In this document: positions 222 through 6,255 of the stretch, one piece after another
How the letters are laid out: each line of letters begins with the position of its first letter
Numbering within the stretch: the stretch's first letter is position 1
NCBI GenBank assembly: GCA_021781415.1
Contig: JAJXWW010000025.1
Location: forward strand, 57,646-121,645
DNA: 64,000 nucleotides
Reading direction: 5' to 3'
Source of the DNA: Planctomycetota bacterium
Lineage (GTDB): Bacteria > Planctomycetota > Planctomycetia > Gemmatales > Gemmataceae
The notes under the pieces: model-generated
Databases searched by the model: none
What the model saw: the letters and a program-made list of their open reading frames with translations, nothing else
What the model was told of the DNA's origin: nothing
Program-made: the position numbers and the translations under genes

Positions 222-509
222 CTAAACGCCTCGCTTCGGCTTGCTCTTCGGCAGTTCGAGGCGACAGCAGCCGAAATCCAGGTGTTCGGTGAGTTCGCCC
301 TTTTTCGAACCGTGAAACACATCGGGATGGAGTCGGTAGACGACAAAGCGTCCCTGCTTTTCATCCTGGACCAGACCGGCATGGCGCAGGACGCCGAGAT
401 GGTGCGAGACATTGACGATCTCGGCATCGAGCAGAGCGGCCAATTCGCTGACACTGCGTTCGCCGCCGCGCAGGCAATGGATGATGCGCAATCGCTCGGG
501 GTCCGCCAA
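222..509 (-). CDS. ArsR-family winged-helix transcriptional regulator
   Basis: MADPERLRIIHCLRGGERSVSELAALLDAEIVNVSHHLGVLRHAGLVQDEKQGRFVVYRL matches the ArsR HTH pattern; the true start may lie slightly upstream. Confidence 0.85.
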   Translation of the reverse strand: MADPERLRIIHCLRGGERSVSELAALLDAEIVNVSHHLGVLRHAGLVQDEKQGRFVVYRLHPDVFHGSKKGELTEHLDFGCCRLELPKSKPKRGV

Positions 510-1196: not shown

Positions 1197-4100
1197 CTAA
1201 GGCACGAAGCCGGCGCGTTTGTTTTGCCCTTTGATAAACACATCGAAATGTTCCAAGGGCAACGGCTCAAGAATCTCCTCGCTCGGTCGCTTGGCCACGA
1301 AGAAGCGCGGCTCGGACTTCGCCCCGCGCGCGATACGGACGGGGATCACCCAATACGAGTGCAGCGCCTTCATGTTTCGAGCCACCCACTTTTGGGGCGG
1401 CAACTGCTTGAAGCTCTCAAGGAGTTGTTCTTCCATCCAGCGCATCGCACCATCGTCAACGTCCAAGAGGCGCTGGCGAGATAGGGCGACTTTCGGAATC
1501 CTTCGTTCGATCCCGAAACCGTCGCGGATCGAGCGATCCAGCAGGCGCGAGGTGTCGTTATCGTTATCGCCGAGCGCGAAGATGACGGGTACCACCGGAA
1601 TACGGTGCGACCATCGAATCCAGTCTGGGACGGGATAGCCGCGGAGCTTCCAGCGCGATTCCATGCCGAGCCAAAAAGCGAGTAAGACGCTCAGCTTCTC
1701 CGGCGGTTTGAGAACGATGCGACCGTTGGGCTGATCGACGCCATTATAACGCAATCCTTCCGACGCCAGCCACAACGATCCCAAGGTCGAACCGAAACCC
1801 GCGCCGACCACGACGAGATTGAAGGTGTTGACCGGACTATCTTTCTCGTCGTGGCGCAGGTCGAGATACATGCGGGCGGCGGCGATGTCGTGGATGAGCC
1901 AGGGTAGGTATTCGGGAGGCAGTCCGTTCCAATCCAGTTTGCTCGGATGGTCGTCGAGCGGTTTGTCTCGAACGAAAGAGGGCAACAGCTTGGCGTTGAC
2001 CGAGTAATCCCAGAACGCGCGCTCGACGTTTTGGCTATCCCCGTGGCCACGAAAGTCGAACGTCAGAACCGTGTGCCCCTCGTTTTGCAGCGCTTCGGCC
2101 AGACGCTTCCATCCCGGCGTGGAACGCGATTGACCCAGATCGTGCAACATCAGCACGGTCATTCCCTTTTTGCCCCTCCATCCGTGATAGAGCGTGGCGG
2201 CAATCTCCATGTGGTCGATGGTGCGGAAGCGGACATTCTGTTGAAGGCCGCGCGGCCGAGTGATGCTCAAGGCGATGTCGCGCTCCCCGACCGTCTGTTT
2301 GCCAACCCGAAGGAGCAATTTGACCGAATACTCCCCCGGCTCGGTGCTTTTCGATACGGCGACGAGGACGTTTGCGAACGATAATTCGGGAGCGATGGTC
2401 GCAGGAGCGGCCGTCGTCCCTTCGGGAAGATTCGACAGAACCACCGTCGCCTCGGATCGATTTTGTCTTCTATCCAACAAGACGCGCAACTCGCCTTGCT
2501 TGCCCGCCTCGACCGCCAGGGAATCGGCCATCTTCTCGTTGAGACGAAGGCGCGGCGATTCTTCTGGAATCGATGGCTCAGCCTTTTTCTGAACCTGGAG
2601 CAGCAGCGCTTTGCTGTCTGCCACCACGTCAGCGACTTTCAGTTGGATCTTGAGCGGGACCGGCTGAGGCATCGTGTCTTCCGCGACGGTCAGTTTCACG
2701 CTTACAACATCGGGGGTGTCCGCGTTCATGGGCAGAGATTCCTGCCGAAGCTGAGGCGGCAGCTTCTCAAAATCGACGGACAGCGGTTCGCGGCAGGCAT
2801 TGCGCCGAACGGAGAAGGCGAACGTCTTGGAACTGCCGGCGGGACAGACGATATTTTCCGGGGGTTGCAACAGGGGGCGCGGGGTCGGCACGACCGAAAG
2901 CTGAAACGCTTGCTCCGCGCGTTTTTCGTCTCCCTGCCACAGTGAAACGCGCACCGTTCGCCGCGGAGGAACAACTCCGAGAGGGGCGATCAATCGCAAC
3001 GAGCAAGATTCTTCGTCCGCGGCCAATGACAGCACCGACGTCGCTGGAACGTCCAGCGCTTTCACCTCGTCGGGCATTCCTTCGAGGCGAAGGGTCAAGG
3101 GTTCGCGGCAATCGCGGCGATCGACGTGGATAGCGATTGTCGTCTTGAATCCCGCGCGGAGTGTCACATCGTCGAGGTGCGATAGGCTCGGCGGGCGTGC
3201 GGACGCGGAGTCGGACGATGGCTTCACGGAGGACCATACCAACACGTTCAGGACGATGAAGCTGATGAGAACGACTGCCCCCACAATAGCAAGCGAGACC
3301 GGCCGCGAGAGCAGCGACAAAACGGGATCGGCGCGAAGGGCGGCTTCGCGCGGTTTTTCTTCCCCCTCGACCGGAGGTTTGGCGTCAAGCTCGATCTCGG
3401 CGGAACTGCGTCGGCGCGCGGCGATGGCTTGCGACGGCAGCGGAGGAGGCACGGATTTGAGTTCGATCGGCTGAGTCTCGGTCAGCGAGACGGTTTGCAC
3501 GGTCGGCTCGGCAACGAGGACGCCGGTGGTAACCGAAACCATCTGCGCGGTCGCCGACGCGAGGCGCGAACGTCTCCGCGCGGGCGATTCCCCACTGAGA
3601 AGCGCCTCGACTTGCATTTCCTCGCTGTCGGACAAGGGACGCACGCCGCTTTCGTCCACCAACTCATCGAGTGCTGGCGCGACGAGGAGCGGGCCGCGGC
3701 TGGCCAAGAGGAGGTGGCCGATCAAATGGCGCGCATCACGATCTTTTAACTCCCACAATTCGCGCAGCAGGCACGATTTGCTCGGTAGGCGGAAGTCCTC
3801 TTCGCGGAATAACAAATTCTCGCCGTTGTCGTGCCGCTGCCACAGATTCGTTCCGCCGACGCGCAGACAGCGCAGAGCCGTGTAAATCAGCAGATGGGCG
3901 AAGCGATCCATCTCGCGGTCGTATCCGCCCGCGCTCAAGCGTTGGGGATGTTGATAATTGGGATGGCCGACCTCGCCGGACGGAATGTCGGCCAACGCCG
4001 GGACGAACATGCCGTCGTAGTCGATCAGCTTGAGGGCCAGCGAACTGCTTTTGCTTCCGGGCACGAGCAAGACATTGCCGTGCTGCAAATCGCCGTGTGC

Positions 4101-4559
4101 CATGCCGGCGTCGTGCAACTCTTGCCCCAGTCGCAGCCACAAGAGTGCCAGGCGTTCGAGAACGACCGGCTTGTTCGAGTGTTCGCAGACGAATTCGTTG
4201 AGTCGAAACCCTTCGACCCATCGCATTTTGACCAGGGGATACCATTGGCCGTGGACGCGGATGCCTTCGTCGAGATAGTGAAACTCAACCATGAAGGCGC
4301 GTTGTGTTTGCCGCAGATGTTCGCTGATGGCTTGGTAGCGAGGGCGCAATCCGGCCACCGGGCGCGTGAAGCACTTGATGGCCCAGCATTGTCCGTCGGC
4401 TCCCTGAATCTGATAGACGTCGGCAAAGTTTCCAGAGTGCGGACGCGGCAGACCAAATAGATCGCCGATGGCTTGCCCTTGGCGCAGATCCTCCTCGGAG
4501 AAACACAGCTGCGGATTCTGTACCGCGGCGTTGTAATCCGTGGCATGAGGCCAAGACAT
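1197..4559 (-). CDS. Transmembrane YegI/TerY-P-type protein kinase fused to a C-terminal alpha/beta-hydrolase-like domain
   Basis: WAIKCF, MAHGDLQHGNVLL and LKLIDYDGM kinase motifs; TM segment SLAIVGAVVLISFIVLNVLVW; C-terminal MTVLMLHDLGQS...VLTFDFRGHGDS...VVVGAGFGS fold signature. Start set to MSWPHATDY with an AGGAG upstream instead of the annotated TTG at 4592. Confidence 0.85.
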   Translation of the reverse strand: MSWPHATDYNAAVQNPQLCFSEEDLRQGQAIGDLFGLPRPHSGNFADVYQIQGADGQCWAIKCFTRPVAGLRPRYQAISEHLRQTQRAFMVEFHYLDEGIRVHGQWYPLVKMRWVEGFRLNEFVCEHSNKPVVLERLALLWLRLGQELHDAGMAHGDLQHGNVLLVPGSKSSSLALKLIDYDGMFVPALADIPSGEVGHPNYQHPQRLSAGGYDREMDRFAHLLIYTALRCLRVGGTNLWQRHDNGENLLFREEDFRLPSKSCLLRELWELKDRDARHLIGHLLLASRGPLLVAPALDELVDESGVRPLSDSEEMQVEALLSGESPARRRSRLASATAQMVSVTTGVLVAEPTVQTVSLTETQPIELKSVPPPLPSQAIAARRRSSAEIELDAKPPVEGEEKPREAALRADPVLSLLSRPVSLAIVGAVVLISFIVLNVLVWSSVKPSSDSASARPPSLSHLDDVTLRAGFKTTIAIHVDRRDCREPLTLRLEGMPDEVKALDVPATSVLSLAADEESCSLRLIAPLGVVPPRRTVRVSLWQGDEKRAEQAFQLSVVPTPRPLLQPPENIVCPAGSSKTFAFSVRRNACREPLSVDFEKLPPQLRQESLPMNADTPDVVSVKLTVAEDTMPQPVPLKIQLKVADVVADSKALLLQVQKKAEPSIPEESPRLRLNEKMADSLAVEAGKQGELRVLLDRRQNRSEATVVLSNLPEGTTAAPATIAPELSFANVLVAVSKSTEPGEYSVKLLLRVGKQTVGERDIALSITRPRGLQQNVRFRTIDHMEIAATLYHGWRGKKGMTVLMLHDLGQSRSTPGWKRLAEALQNEGHTVLTFDFRGHGDSQNVERAFWDYSVNAKLLPSFVRDKPLDDHPSKLDWNGLPPEYLPWLIHDIAAARMYLDLRHDEKDSPVNTFNLVVVGAGFGSTLGSLWLASEGLRYNGVDQPNGRIVLKPPEKLSVLLAFWLGMESRWKLRGYPVPDWIRWSHRIPVVPVIFALGDNDNDTSRLLDRSIRDGFGIERRIPKVALSRQRLLDVDDGAMRWMEEQLLESFKQLPPQKWVARNMKALHSYWVIPVRIARGAKSEPRFFVAKRPSEEILEPLPLEHFDVFIKGQNKRAGFVP

Positions 4560-4580
4560 CGCGCACTCCTTGTGGAATCC

Positions 4581-4607
4581 AGCCGGCAGCAAAAGCCACT
4601 GCCGGCT
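4581..4607. promoter_or_regulatory. Inverted repeat AGCCGGCAG-N9-CTGCCGGCT between the PP2C stop and kinase start
   Basis: Perfect 9-bp arms read directly. Confidence 0.4.
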
Positions 4608-5409
4608 ACTGACTAATCGCCACGAGCGTTACGTCGTCGTTGCGCAGTCGGCGTTCGTTGCGCAGTCCCTCGATCCAAGCGGCGAAAGCGTGTTGCGCCT
4701 CGTCGTCGCTGCTGCCCGGATAGATCAGCGGTTCCAACGACAGCCACGGCTTCGCTCCTGCCTCAGACTGAAGTAAAAACCACTGTGCCAAGGCGTCGGT
4801 CATCAGCCAGAATCGGTCGCCCGGTTGGCATTCGCCGTACTGTTGCAGACCGTTCTTGTTCGGCACTTCGATCGGCGAGGTGCGCGAGCCAACGAGCCAG
4901 GGTGCATTGCTGAAATCGGCGGCGCGCAAGATTGGGAATGTCCGAATCAACTCGCCGCGACGCACCTGAAATAAACAGCTGTCGCCGACTGCCAGGGCAT
5001 ACCAACTATTATCTTCAAAGACTAAACCGAGGAAAGTGGCAAACGCTCCTTGCGTCAATCCGGGTTCGAGATACCACGGCACATCGGCACTTCGCTGCCC
5101 TCCGTCCTCGGACGAACTTCTCGAAGCGAGGAATGCCGAATAGGGAGAACGGATGGCCGACAACCATCGATCTTGAAGGGACGGCAGCCAATTCGCCCAG
5201 CGGGGAAGGGGATCGTTTTGCCGCACGAACTCCTCGACGAGCAGTTGCGCCCAGAGCGCAGCGTGGGGGCTTTCGGCCGCGCCGTCGGCAATGGCAAAGC
5301 GGCCGCGCTCGGCGTCCACGGCCAAGGCATCCTGGCATTCGTCCAGGTCGTAGCCCTGACGGGGCAAGCGAAAGGCGCGAGAGCCGAGGCCGACGCCGGA
5401 CAACGCCAT
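4606..5409 (-). CDS. PP2C-family protein phosphatase-like protein
   Basis: FAIADGAAES, YALAVGDSCLFQVRRGEL, FWLMTDALAQWFL and RNDDVTLVAI correspond to PP2C motifs. Confidence 0.8.
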   Translation of the reverse strand: MALSGVGLGSRAFRLPRQGYDLDECQDALAVDAERGRFAIADGAAESPHAALWAQLLVEEFVRQNDPLPRWANWLPSLQDRWLSAIRSPYSAFLASRSSSEDGGQRSADVPWYLEPGLTQGAFATFLGLVFEDNSWYALAVGDSCLFQVRRGELIRTFPILRAADFSNAPWLVGSRTSPIEVPNKNGLQQYGECQPGDRFWLMTDALAQWFLLQSEAGAKPWLSLEPLIYPGSSDDEAQHAFAAWIEGLRNERRLRNDDVTLVAISQ

Positions 5410-5412
5410 GAC

Positions 5413-6255
5413 TCACCGTAGGTTCTTGGGATCGACTCGCGTACCGATGTCCAGAAAACGGACCACCGATGCCAAATCGGCGTTGAAGACGAAGCCACGC
5501 GAGTCGGCCGTCACCGTCAGACCCGCCTGACGCGCCGATTGAAGCATCGCTGGCGGCAGCAAGCTCGACATGCGGAACAAGCGGCGCGCGTAATCGTCGG
5601 GCAAACCCGACTCGGCATCGGGAAACTCGATGGCTTGCGAGGCAGACGACGAGATGTGGCCGTTAAACAATAAGACCGCTCCATCCTCGCTGGCCAACTC
5701 GCCCAGATTCTTGGCCGTCTCCTCGGGATTGCCGTCCGTCGCTTCTCCATCGGAGAGATTGACCACCAGAGGAGGATAGCAAGCGGGATGTTCGAGCAGG
5801 AAACCGGAGACGATTTGAATGGCTTGCTCCAGCGCTTTGCACATCGGCGTCTTCCCGTCGCCGGCCGCTTCGAACCACACCGGCGACCGGACGATCTGCT
5901 CGACCTGCCCGCCGCGTCCATCGTCCACGAGATTGGCGCGCTGTTCGACGCGCAATGGATTGCGGGCCAACTCGCCGATAGGAACCAAGACGCGCTCGGC
6001 CAACCCTCCGCCCAGCGCGGGCCGAACCTGACGGCCGTAGCCGATCACTCCGACATGAAAGCGGTCGAGGACAGTCTGTCCCCACACGCAGCGCAATACC
6101 AAGGTATACAGCAGGCGATTGAGCGAGTCGGCCACTACGTCGGCTTTCTTATTGCCCAAACCGCCGCCGATCGGTCCCAACATGGACTTCGATTGATCGA
6201 CGAGAAAGAGGAAGCAGGTAGGGTTCGAGCGGCTGATTTCCGCAGTGTAGGGCAT
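5413..6255 (-). CDS. VWA-domain protein (TerY/YegL-like)
   Basis: MPYTAEISRSNPTCFLFLVDQSKSMLGPI: DxSxS MIDAS, then KTPMCKALEQA and VNLSDGEATDG; stop is 3 nt before the PP2C start. Confidence 0.85.
   Translation of the reverse strand: MPYTAEISRSNPTCFLFLVDQSKSMLGPIGGGLGNKKADVVADSLNRLLYTLVLRCVWGQTVLDRFHVGVIGYGRQVRPALGGGLAERVLVPIGELARNPLRVEQRANLVDDGRGGQVEQIVRSPVWFEAAGDGKTPMCKALEQAIQIVSGFLLEHPACYPPLVVNLSDGEATDGNPEETAKNLGELASEDGAVLLFNGHISSSASQAIEFPDAESGLPDDYARRLFRMSSLLPPAMLQSARQAGLTVTADSRGFVFNADLASVVRFLDIGTRVDPKNLR

Follow-up and report, generated by a model that had tools for sequence, protein, structure and literature searches.

An alpha/beta-hydrolase-fold domain lacking nucleophile and base at the C-terminus of a TerY-P-like transmembrane kinase in Planctomycetota

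Three adjacent genes on the minus strand of the window, the whole 64,000-nucleotide stretch of Planctomycetota DNA analysed here, encode a TerY-like vWA protein, a PP2C-type phosphatase and a Ser/Thr kinase that is fused to a long C-terminal extension. The open reading frame of the fused gene runs from 1197 to 4592, and its likely start is an in-frame ATG at 4557-4559. A related-locus search with the single fused protein returned one locus. Elsewhere in the window, a small ORF at 222-509 (minus strand) resembles an ArsR-type winged-helix regulator. The features of the triad are as follows.

5413..6255, minus strand: TerY-like vWA protein, which opens the triad (PADLOC TerY 6e-95; Pfam VWA weakly)
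4606..5409, minus strand: PP2C-type phosphatase, the next gene upstream of the kinase (Pfam PP2C_2 2.9e-07; PADLOC PP2C 1.5e-27)
1197..4559, minus strand: fused gene of about 1120 aa, Ser/Thr kinase, single transmembrane (TM) helix, Ig-like region and pseudo-alpha/beta-hydrolase (ORF and whole-genome match G000:C78)
3648..4556, minus strand: kinase domain (Pfam Pkinase 4.6e-05, under the gathering cut-off; PADLOC STK_OB 3.5e-68, residues 2-314)
3237..3293, minus strand: predicted single TM helix, SLAIVGAVVLISFIVLNV (hydropathy 2.93 across 19 residues)
2256..3146, minus strand: probable Ig-like or beta-sandwich repeats, extracytoplasmic stalk (by eye, from repeated motifs)
1200..2240, minus strand: pseudo-alpha/beta-hydrolase domain (Pfam Abhydrolase_6, AlphaFold2, Foldseek, dN/dS)
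2034..2057, minus strand: DFRGHGDS motif, following strand beta4 (its D, R, both G and S are invariant in 62/62)
1791..1805, minus strand: degenerate nucleophile elbow G-A-G-F-G, NLVVVGAGFGSTLG (codons GGC GCG GGT TTC GGT)
1560..1562, minus strand: Asp232 (domain numbering), at the site of the catalytic acid that follows beta7
1479..1481, minus strand: Ser259, equivalent of the catalytic His (alignment)

Since the window kinase retains Asp, Asn and Lys at the catalytic sites, it is probably active. Its motifs are the AIKCF lysine, a catalytic loop HGDLQHGN with HGD for HRD, and DYDG for DFG. The predicted helix is the sole stretch of such hydropathy in the whole fused protein. No Pfam match was found for the Ig-like stalk region, whose repeat number differs between fusions and which is missing or replaced in the fused genes of two other genomes, G037 and G038.

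An alpha/beta-hydrolase fold at the kinase C-terminus had been proposed in an earlier note made from the sequence of the window, and it is borne out by profile and structure. Abhydrolase_6 matches the isolated domain at 27.0 bits against a gathering score of 26.3, and the AlphaFold2 model, built from an alignment of 59 homologous rows, is confident (mean pLDDT 91.1, pTM 0.92). In the PDB, Foldseek found over 1000 matches with E<=0.001 (best E 1.1e-10), headed by PET46, feruloyl/chlorogenic esterases and dienelactone hydrolase; DPPX (1xfd), a dipeptidyl-peptidase-like protein without enzyme activity, is also among them. With its core fold and strand-elbow-helix, the domain belongs to the alpha/beta-hydrolase superfamily. 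Gly153 sits on the elbow of the model, between strand 147-152 and helix 154-166. Among the hallmarks of a catalytic Ser hydrolase, the acid after beta7 is present (Asp232), GxSxG is replaced by GAGFG, and the His after beta8 is replaced by Ser259. The replacement of Ser by Gly, the missing His and the intact DFRGHGDS motif had been read correctly in the earlier note; the retained acid, the mainly stand-alone secreted family and the TerY-P-like triad go beyond it.

Of 95 genomes searched in the window's taxonomic family, 84 gave homologs of the domain, although at least one of these, a weak partial match in G018 (L197), is an ordinary Ser-containing hydrolase. The family-level alignment comprises 61 retrieved domains and the window domain. 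Among these 62 sequences the elbow residue is G (32), E (12), D (6), Q (4), T (4), R (2), K (1) or C (1) and never Ser, the catalytic His is present in none (0/62), and Asp232 is kept in all (62/62). Residues D14, D67, R69, G70, G72, S74, D123 and N143 are likewise invariant. A profile search covering 392 genomes of the phylum also hit 36 of 39 genomes that share the class but not the family, and the elbow position of these 36 sequences holds D, G, E or R. The check on ortholog elbows that had been set beforehand thus found GxSxG retained in 0/62 sequences of the family and 0/36 of the rest of the class. As far as the aligned sequences tell, loss of Ser and His is the rule for the whole family and not a local mutation. 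A displaced triad was also considered and rejected. Strong conservation of Ser or His is confined to columns S74, H38 and H71, all part of the ordinary HxxG and DFRGHGxS motifs that are also found in relatives with both Ser and His, and conserved Ser, Cys and His residues all lie in motifs common to catalytic relatives. No displaced triad is therefore apparent, and the earlier reading of the domain as a pseudo-hydrolase is supported.

A few homologs have unusual elbows. In L164 and L196 an elbow Asp is accompanied by a His that occupies or adjoins the site of the catalytic His, which may amount to an arrangement with Asp as nucleophile. L077 has an elbow Cys (VAECEMATL) and no His at the base site. 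These homologs (elbow Cys in L077, Asp with a nearby His in L196 and L164) may have some unusual activity.

The fused domain is under purifying selection. Between the window's genome (G000) and G039, dN/dS by Nei-Gojobori counts is 0.090 for the pseudo-hydrolase versus 0.092 for the kinase, and 0.27-0.29 for the linker and Ig-like region. Pairs with G037 and G038 are more divergent and near saturation in dS, so that their dN/dS is supportive only. The open frame is intact in every listed family-level homolog. Since the dN/dS of 0.09 equals the kinase value, the fused domain is functional and not decaying.

Phylogenetic analysis was carried out on an alignment from which the elbow and His columns had been removed. 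Distant relatives elsewhere in the phylum carry an intact GAS(V/I)G and an HGTxMFG-type His (L120, L173, L178, L179, L182, L185, L188-L190 and L192); they sit among those matching mainly the first 70 profile positions, and their HGTxMFG His aligns with window Ser259. In the tree, the Ser-containing rows fall outside a Ser-less group of 101 rows (SH-aLRT 92), and the window's taxonomic family alone makes up 65 rows (SH-aLRT 100). The Ser/Ser-less label requires a minimum of four changes on the tree, of which well-supported branches force only one. That 101 rows from a single region of the tree all have a Ser-less elbow is more than chance. Judged from these sequences, the Ser-less group is derived from true hydrolases, because relatives with Ser and His occur elsewhere in the phylum. 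A second group without Ser and His (family code f35, 13 rows, support 98), made up of L119, L122, L123, L125, L126, L172, L174-L177, L180, L181 and L194, comes from elsewhere in the phylum; its members have an elbow Gly, except for one with Arg. It may represent either an independent loss or the same loss, shared.

The majority of family-level homologs are stand-alone proteins of about 350-450 aa, most of which start with a typical signal peptide (by eye). Fusion to a kinase is rare, being found in six genomes (G000, G039, G037, G038, G030 and G033), and one TM helix lies between kinase and stalk in 6/6 of these. The window-type fusions and the G030/G033 fusions are apart on the tree; as they do not group, the kinase fusion may have arisen twice, with weak tree support. 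Hydropathy and signal peptides suggest a cytoplasmic kinase and an extracytoplasmic pseudo-hydrolase, in keeping with the placement outside the cytoplasm that the earlier note had considered. No conserved functional partner was found in the neighbourhoods of the family- and class-level stand-alone copies. A XerC/D-like tyrosine recombinase gene often adjoins the stand-alone gene (L057, L063, L046, L048, L055, L056, L059, L069 and others), and large SecD-like translocase genes are seen near it in class-level loci L199, L202, L206, L210 and L212, with YajC-like translocase genes in three (by eye). These recurrent neighbours look like shared ancestry of gene order.

The trio of vWA, PP2C and kinase genes recurs at the fused loci of G039 and G033, and again around a paralogous kinase at another site in the window's genome. 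In G037 and G038 (L037 and L038) PP2C is absent from the locus, where the vWA gene is followed directly by the fused kinase, and a PP2C homolog is found elsewhere in each genome. Kinase homologs are present in 61 of the 95 genomes of the taxonomic family, often in several copies. Paralogs L219-L234 and L127 carry C-terminal WD40, PA14, 3-keto-disaccharide hydrolase/DUF1080, LamG, HEAT or DUF1349 modules, which sit after one TM helix, except in L229, which has no TM and ends in HEAT repeats. TerY-P-like kinases have expanded in the taxonomic family, with interchangeable C-terminal modules.

In TerY-P triads the kinase is joined to a zinc ribbon, and in the TerY-P-like modules with anti-phage function it has an OB-fold (PMC11090510). 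The window locus has the TerY-like vWA protein and the PP2C-like phosphatase, and its kinase has neither C-terminus: the STK_OB match covers profile positions 3-308 of 562, leaving the OB-fold half unmatched. The window triad is a variant of TerY-P and no strict member, because the zinc-ribbon/OB-fold half is replaced by a TM helix, an Ig-like region and the pseudo-hydrolase.

We consider it likely, with a probability of roughly 0.68, that the C-terminus is a non-catalytic extracytoplasmic binding or input module of alpha/beta-hydrolase fold, from an unnamed Planctomycetota family, on a TerY-P-like transmembrane kinase. In this explanation the Ser nucleophile and His base were lost long before the kinase fusion and, in a few genomes of the window's family, the module was then attached to the triad kinase, with a TM helix and a variable stalk in between. 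The fused domain most likely binds something and does not digest it. The kinase would be cytoplasmic and the pseudo-hydrolase periplasmic, binding a small ligand or a protein partner at or close to its former pocket; the bound state would be relayed through stalk and TM helix to the kinase and alter its activity, with PP2C and the vWA protein resetting or scaffolding the response.

The main rival, clearly the less probable of the two, is a pure scaffold role, in which a non-catalytic dimerisation or adhesion module, in the manner of neuroligins and DPP10, tethers the kinase to another envelope protein and senses no small ligand. Non-enzymatic alpha/beta-hydrolases of known role do mostly work through protein contacts (PMC7022630; DPP10, PMC4350108), the WD40 and HEAT repeats on the kinase paralogs are protein-binding folds, and ordinary structural residues are among the conserved ones. 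However, Asp232 and the oxyanion-side motifs are invariant or nearly so despite the loss of Ser and His, a weak hint that the pocket region is still used. An anti-phage role, in which the triad is a TerY-P defence system and the pseudo-hydrolase senses phage or envelope damage outside the cytoplasm, has a small chance of being correct. It is suggested by the PADLOC matches (STK_OB 3.5e-68, PP2C 1.5e-27, TerY 6e-95) and by the reported anti-phage activity of TerY-P-like modules with an OB-fold kinase (PMC11090510), but it is precisely the OB-fold half that is unmatched here. Furthermore, kinase homologs in 61/95 genomes, often multicopy, are unlike a typical mobile defence cassette, and the stand-alone family is nearly universal in the class.

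The chance is smaller still that the domain remains an enzyme with a non-classical mechanism, using an elbow Asp, Glu or Cys, as in some homologs, or another residue. Elbow D (31), E (16) and C (1) do occur among the 130 aligned rows, and L196 and L164 pair an elbow Asp with a nearby His; however, relatives show G, E, D, Q, T, R or K at the elbow, a variability not expected of a catalytic residue, and in the window protein Gly stands there and the His is missing, so that such an activity is unlikely for it. A local degenerate mutation or a decaying copy in the window genome, which the missing Ser and His and nothing further would suggest, was rejected and has next to no chance of being right, given that the loss is common to all orthologs, the frames are intact and dN/dS is 0.09. 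More tentatively, and with less confidence than the binding module itself, the near-universal secreted family, phylum-restricted in searches within Planctomycetota, might serve the class as a general system for binding ligands or partners outside the cytoplasm, one that has been wired directly into TerY-P-like triads in some lineages.

No dedicated model for the family is found in Pfam or NCBIfam. Its genes are probably annotated as hydrolases, since members match generic alpha/beta-hydrolase models only, yet they lack nucleophile and base. A text search of the open-access literature found no described planctomycete pseudo-hydrolase family, and the present one appears to be undescribed so far. 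Its near-universal presence in the sampled genomes of the class, the mostly secreted appearance of its members and selection on the fused copy as strong as that on the kinase point to a conserved non-enzymatic function in the envelope. The kinase fusion offers a handle, with phosphorylation as a measurable output for finding the binding partner of the domain. If the more tentative reading of a class-wide binding system wired into the triads is true, the fused triads would be a membrane-spanning version of a signalling module whose kinases have elsewhere been described with a zinc ribbon or an OB-fold, the OB-fold form being anti-phage.

The best fold and sequence matches of the window domain, the feruloyl/cinnamoyl esterases, PET46 and dienelactone hydrolase, differ from it in being catalytic, with Ser and His intact. 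Inactive alpha/beta-hydrolases are well established, and include NDRG, neuroligin and thyroglobulin (PMC7022630). NDRG1-4 resemble the window domain in fold, in the replacement of triad positions by non-reactive residues and in a signalling role (PMC7022630). They differ in that the whole triad is replaced, the acid included. NDRG proteins are also eukaryotic and not secreted. Membership in this group was rejected, as the Pfam Ndr profile matched none of the 59 members tested at E<=0.01. In DPP10 the elbow Ser is replaced by Gly and in DPP6 by Asp (PMC4350108), substitutions that are also seen in the window family. Both are membrane-anchored with an extracellular alpha/beta-hydrolase fold, as predicted for the window domain, and both regulate another protein (PMC4350108), which is similar to the role proposed here. 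Unlike the window domain, however, DPP10 keeps its His, carries an S9 beta-propeller, is eukaryotic and has the Kv4 channel as partner, not a kinase on the same chain. Membership in S9B (DPP6/DPP10) was rejected: no S9 profile matches the window domain or the family members in Pfam, and the stalk has no Pfam match.

Planctomycete Ser/Thr kinases with a single TM have been predicted to combine a cytoplasmic kinase with periplasmic WD40, TPR, SUMF1 or DUF1080 modules (PMC11032199), the same layout as in the window. An alpha/beta-hydrolase-fold module is not described there, the word hydrolase being absent from the text; by analogy, the pseudo-hydrolase would be one more such periplasmic module. 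With TerY-P and the TerY-P-like STK_OB/PP2C/TerY systems the window shares the same ordered vWA, PP2C and homologous kinase genes, but its kinase ends in a TM helix, an Ig-like region and a pseudo-hydrolase where theirs end in a zinc ribbon or an OB-fold.
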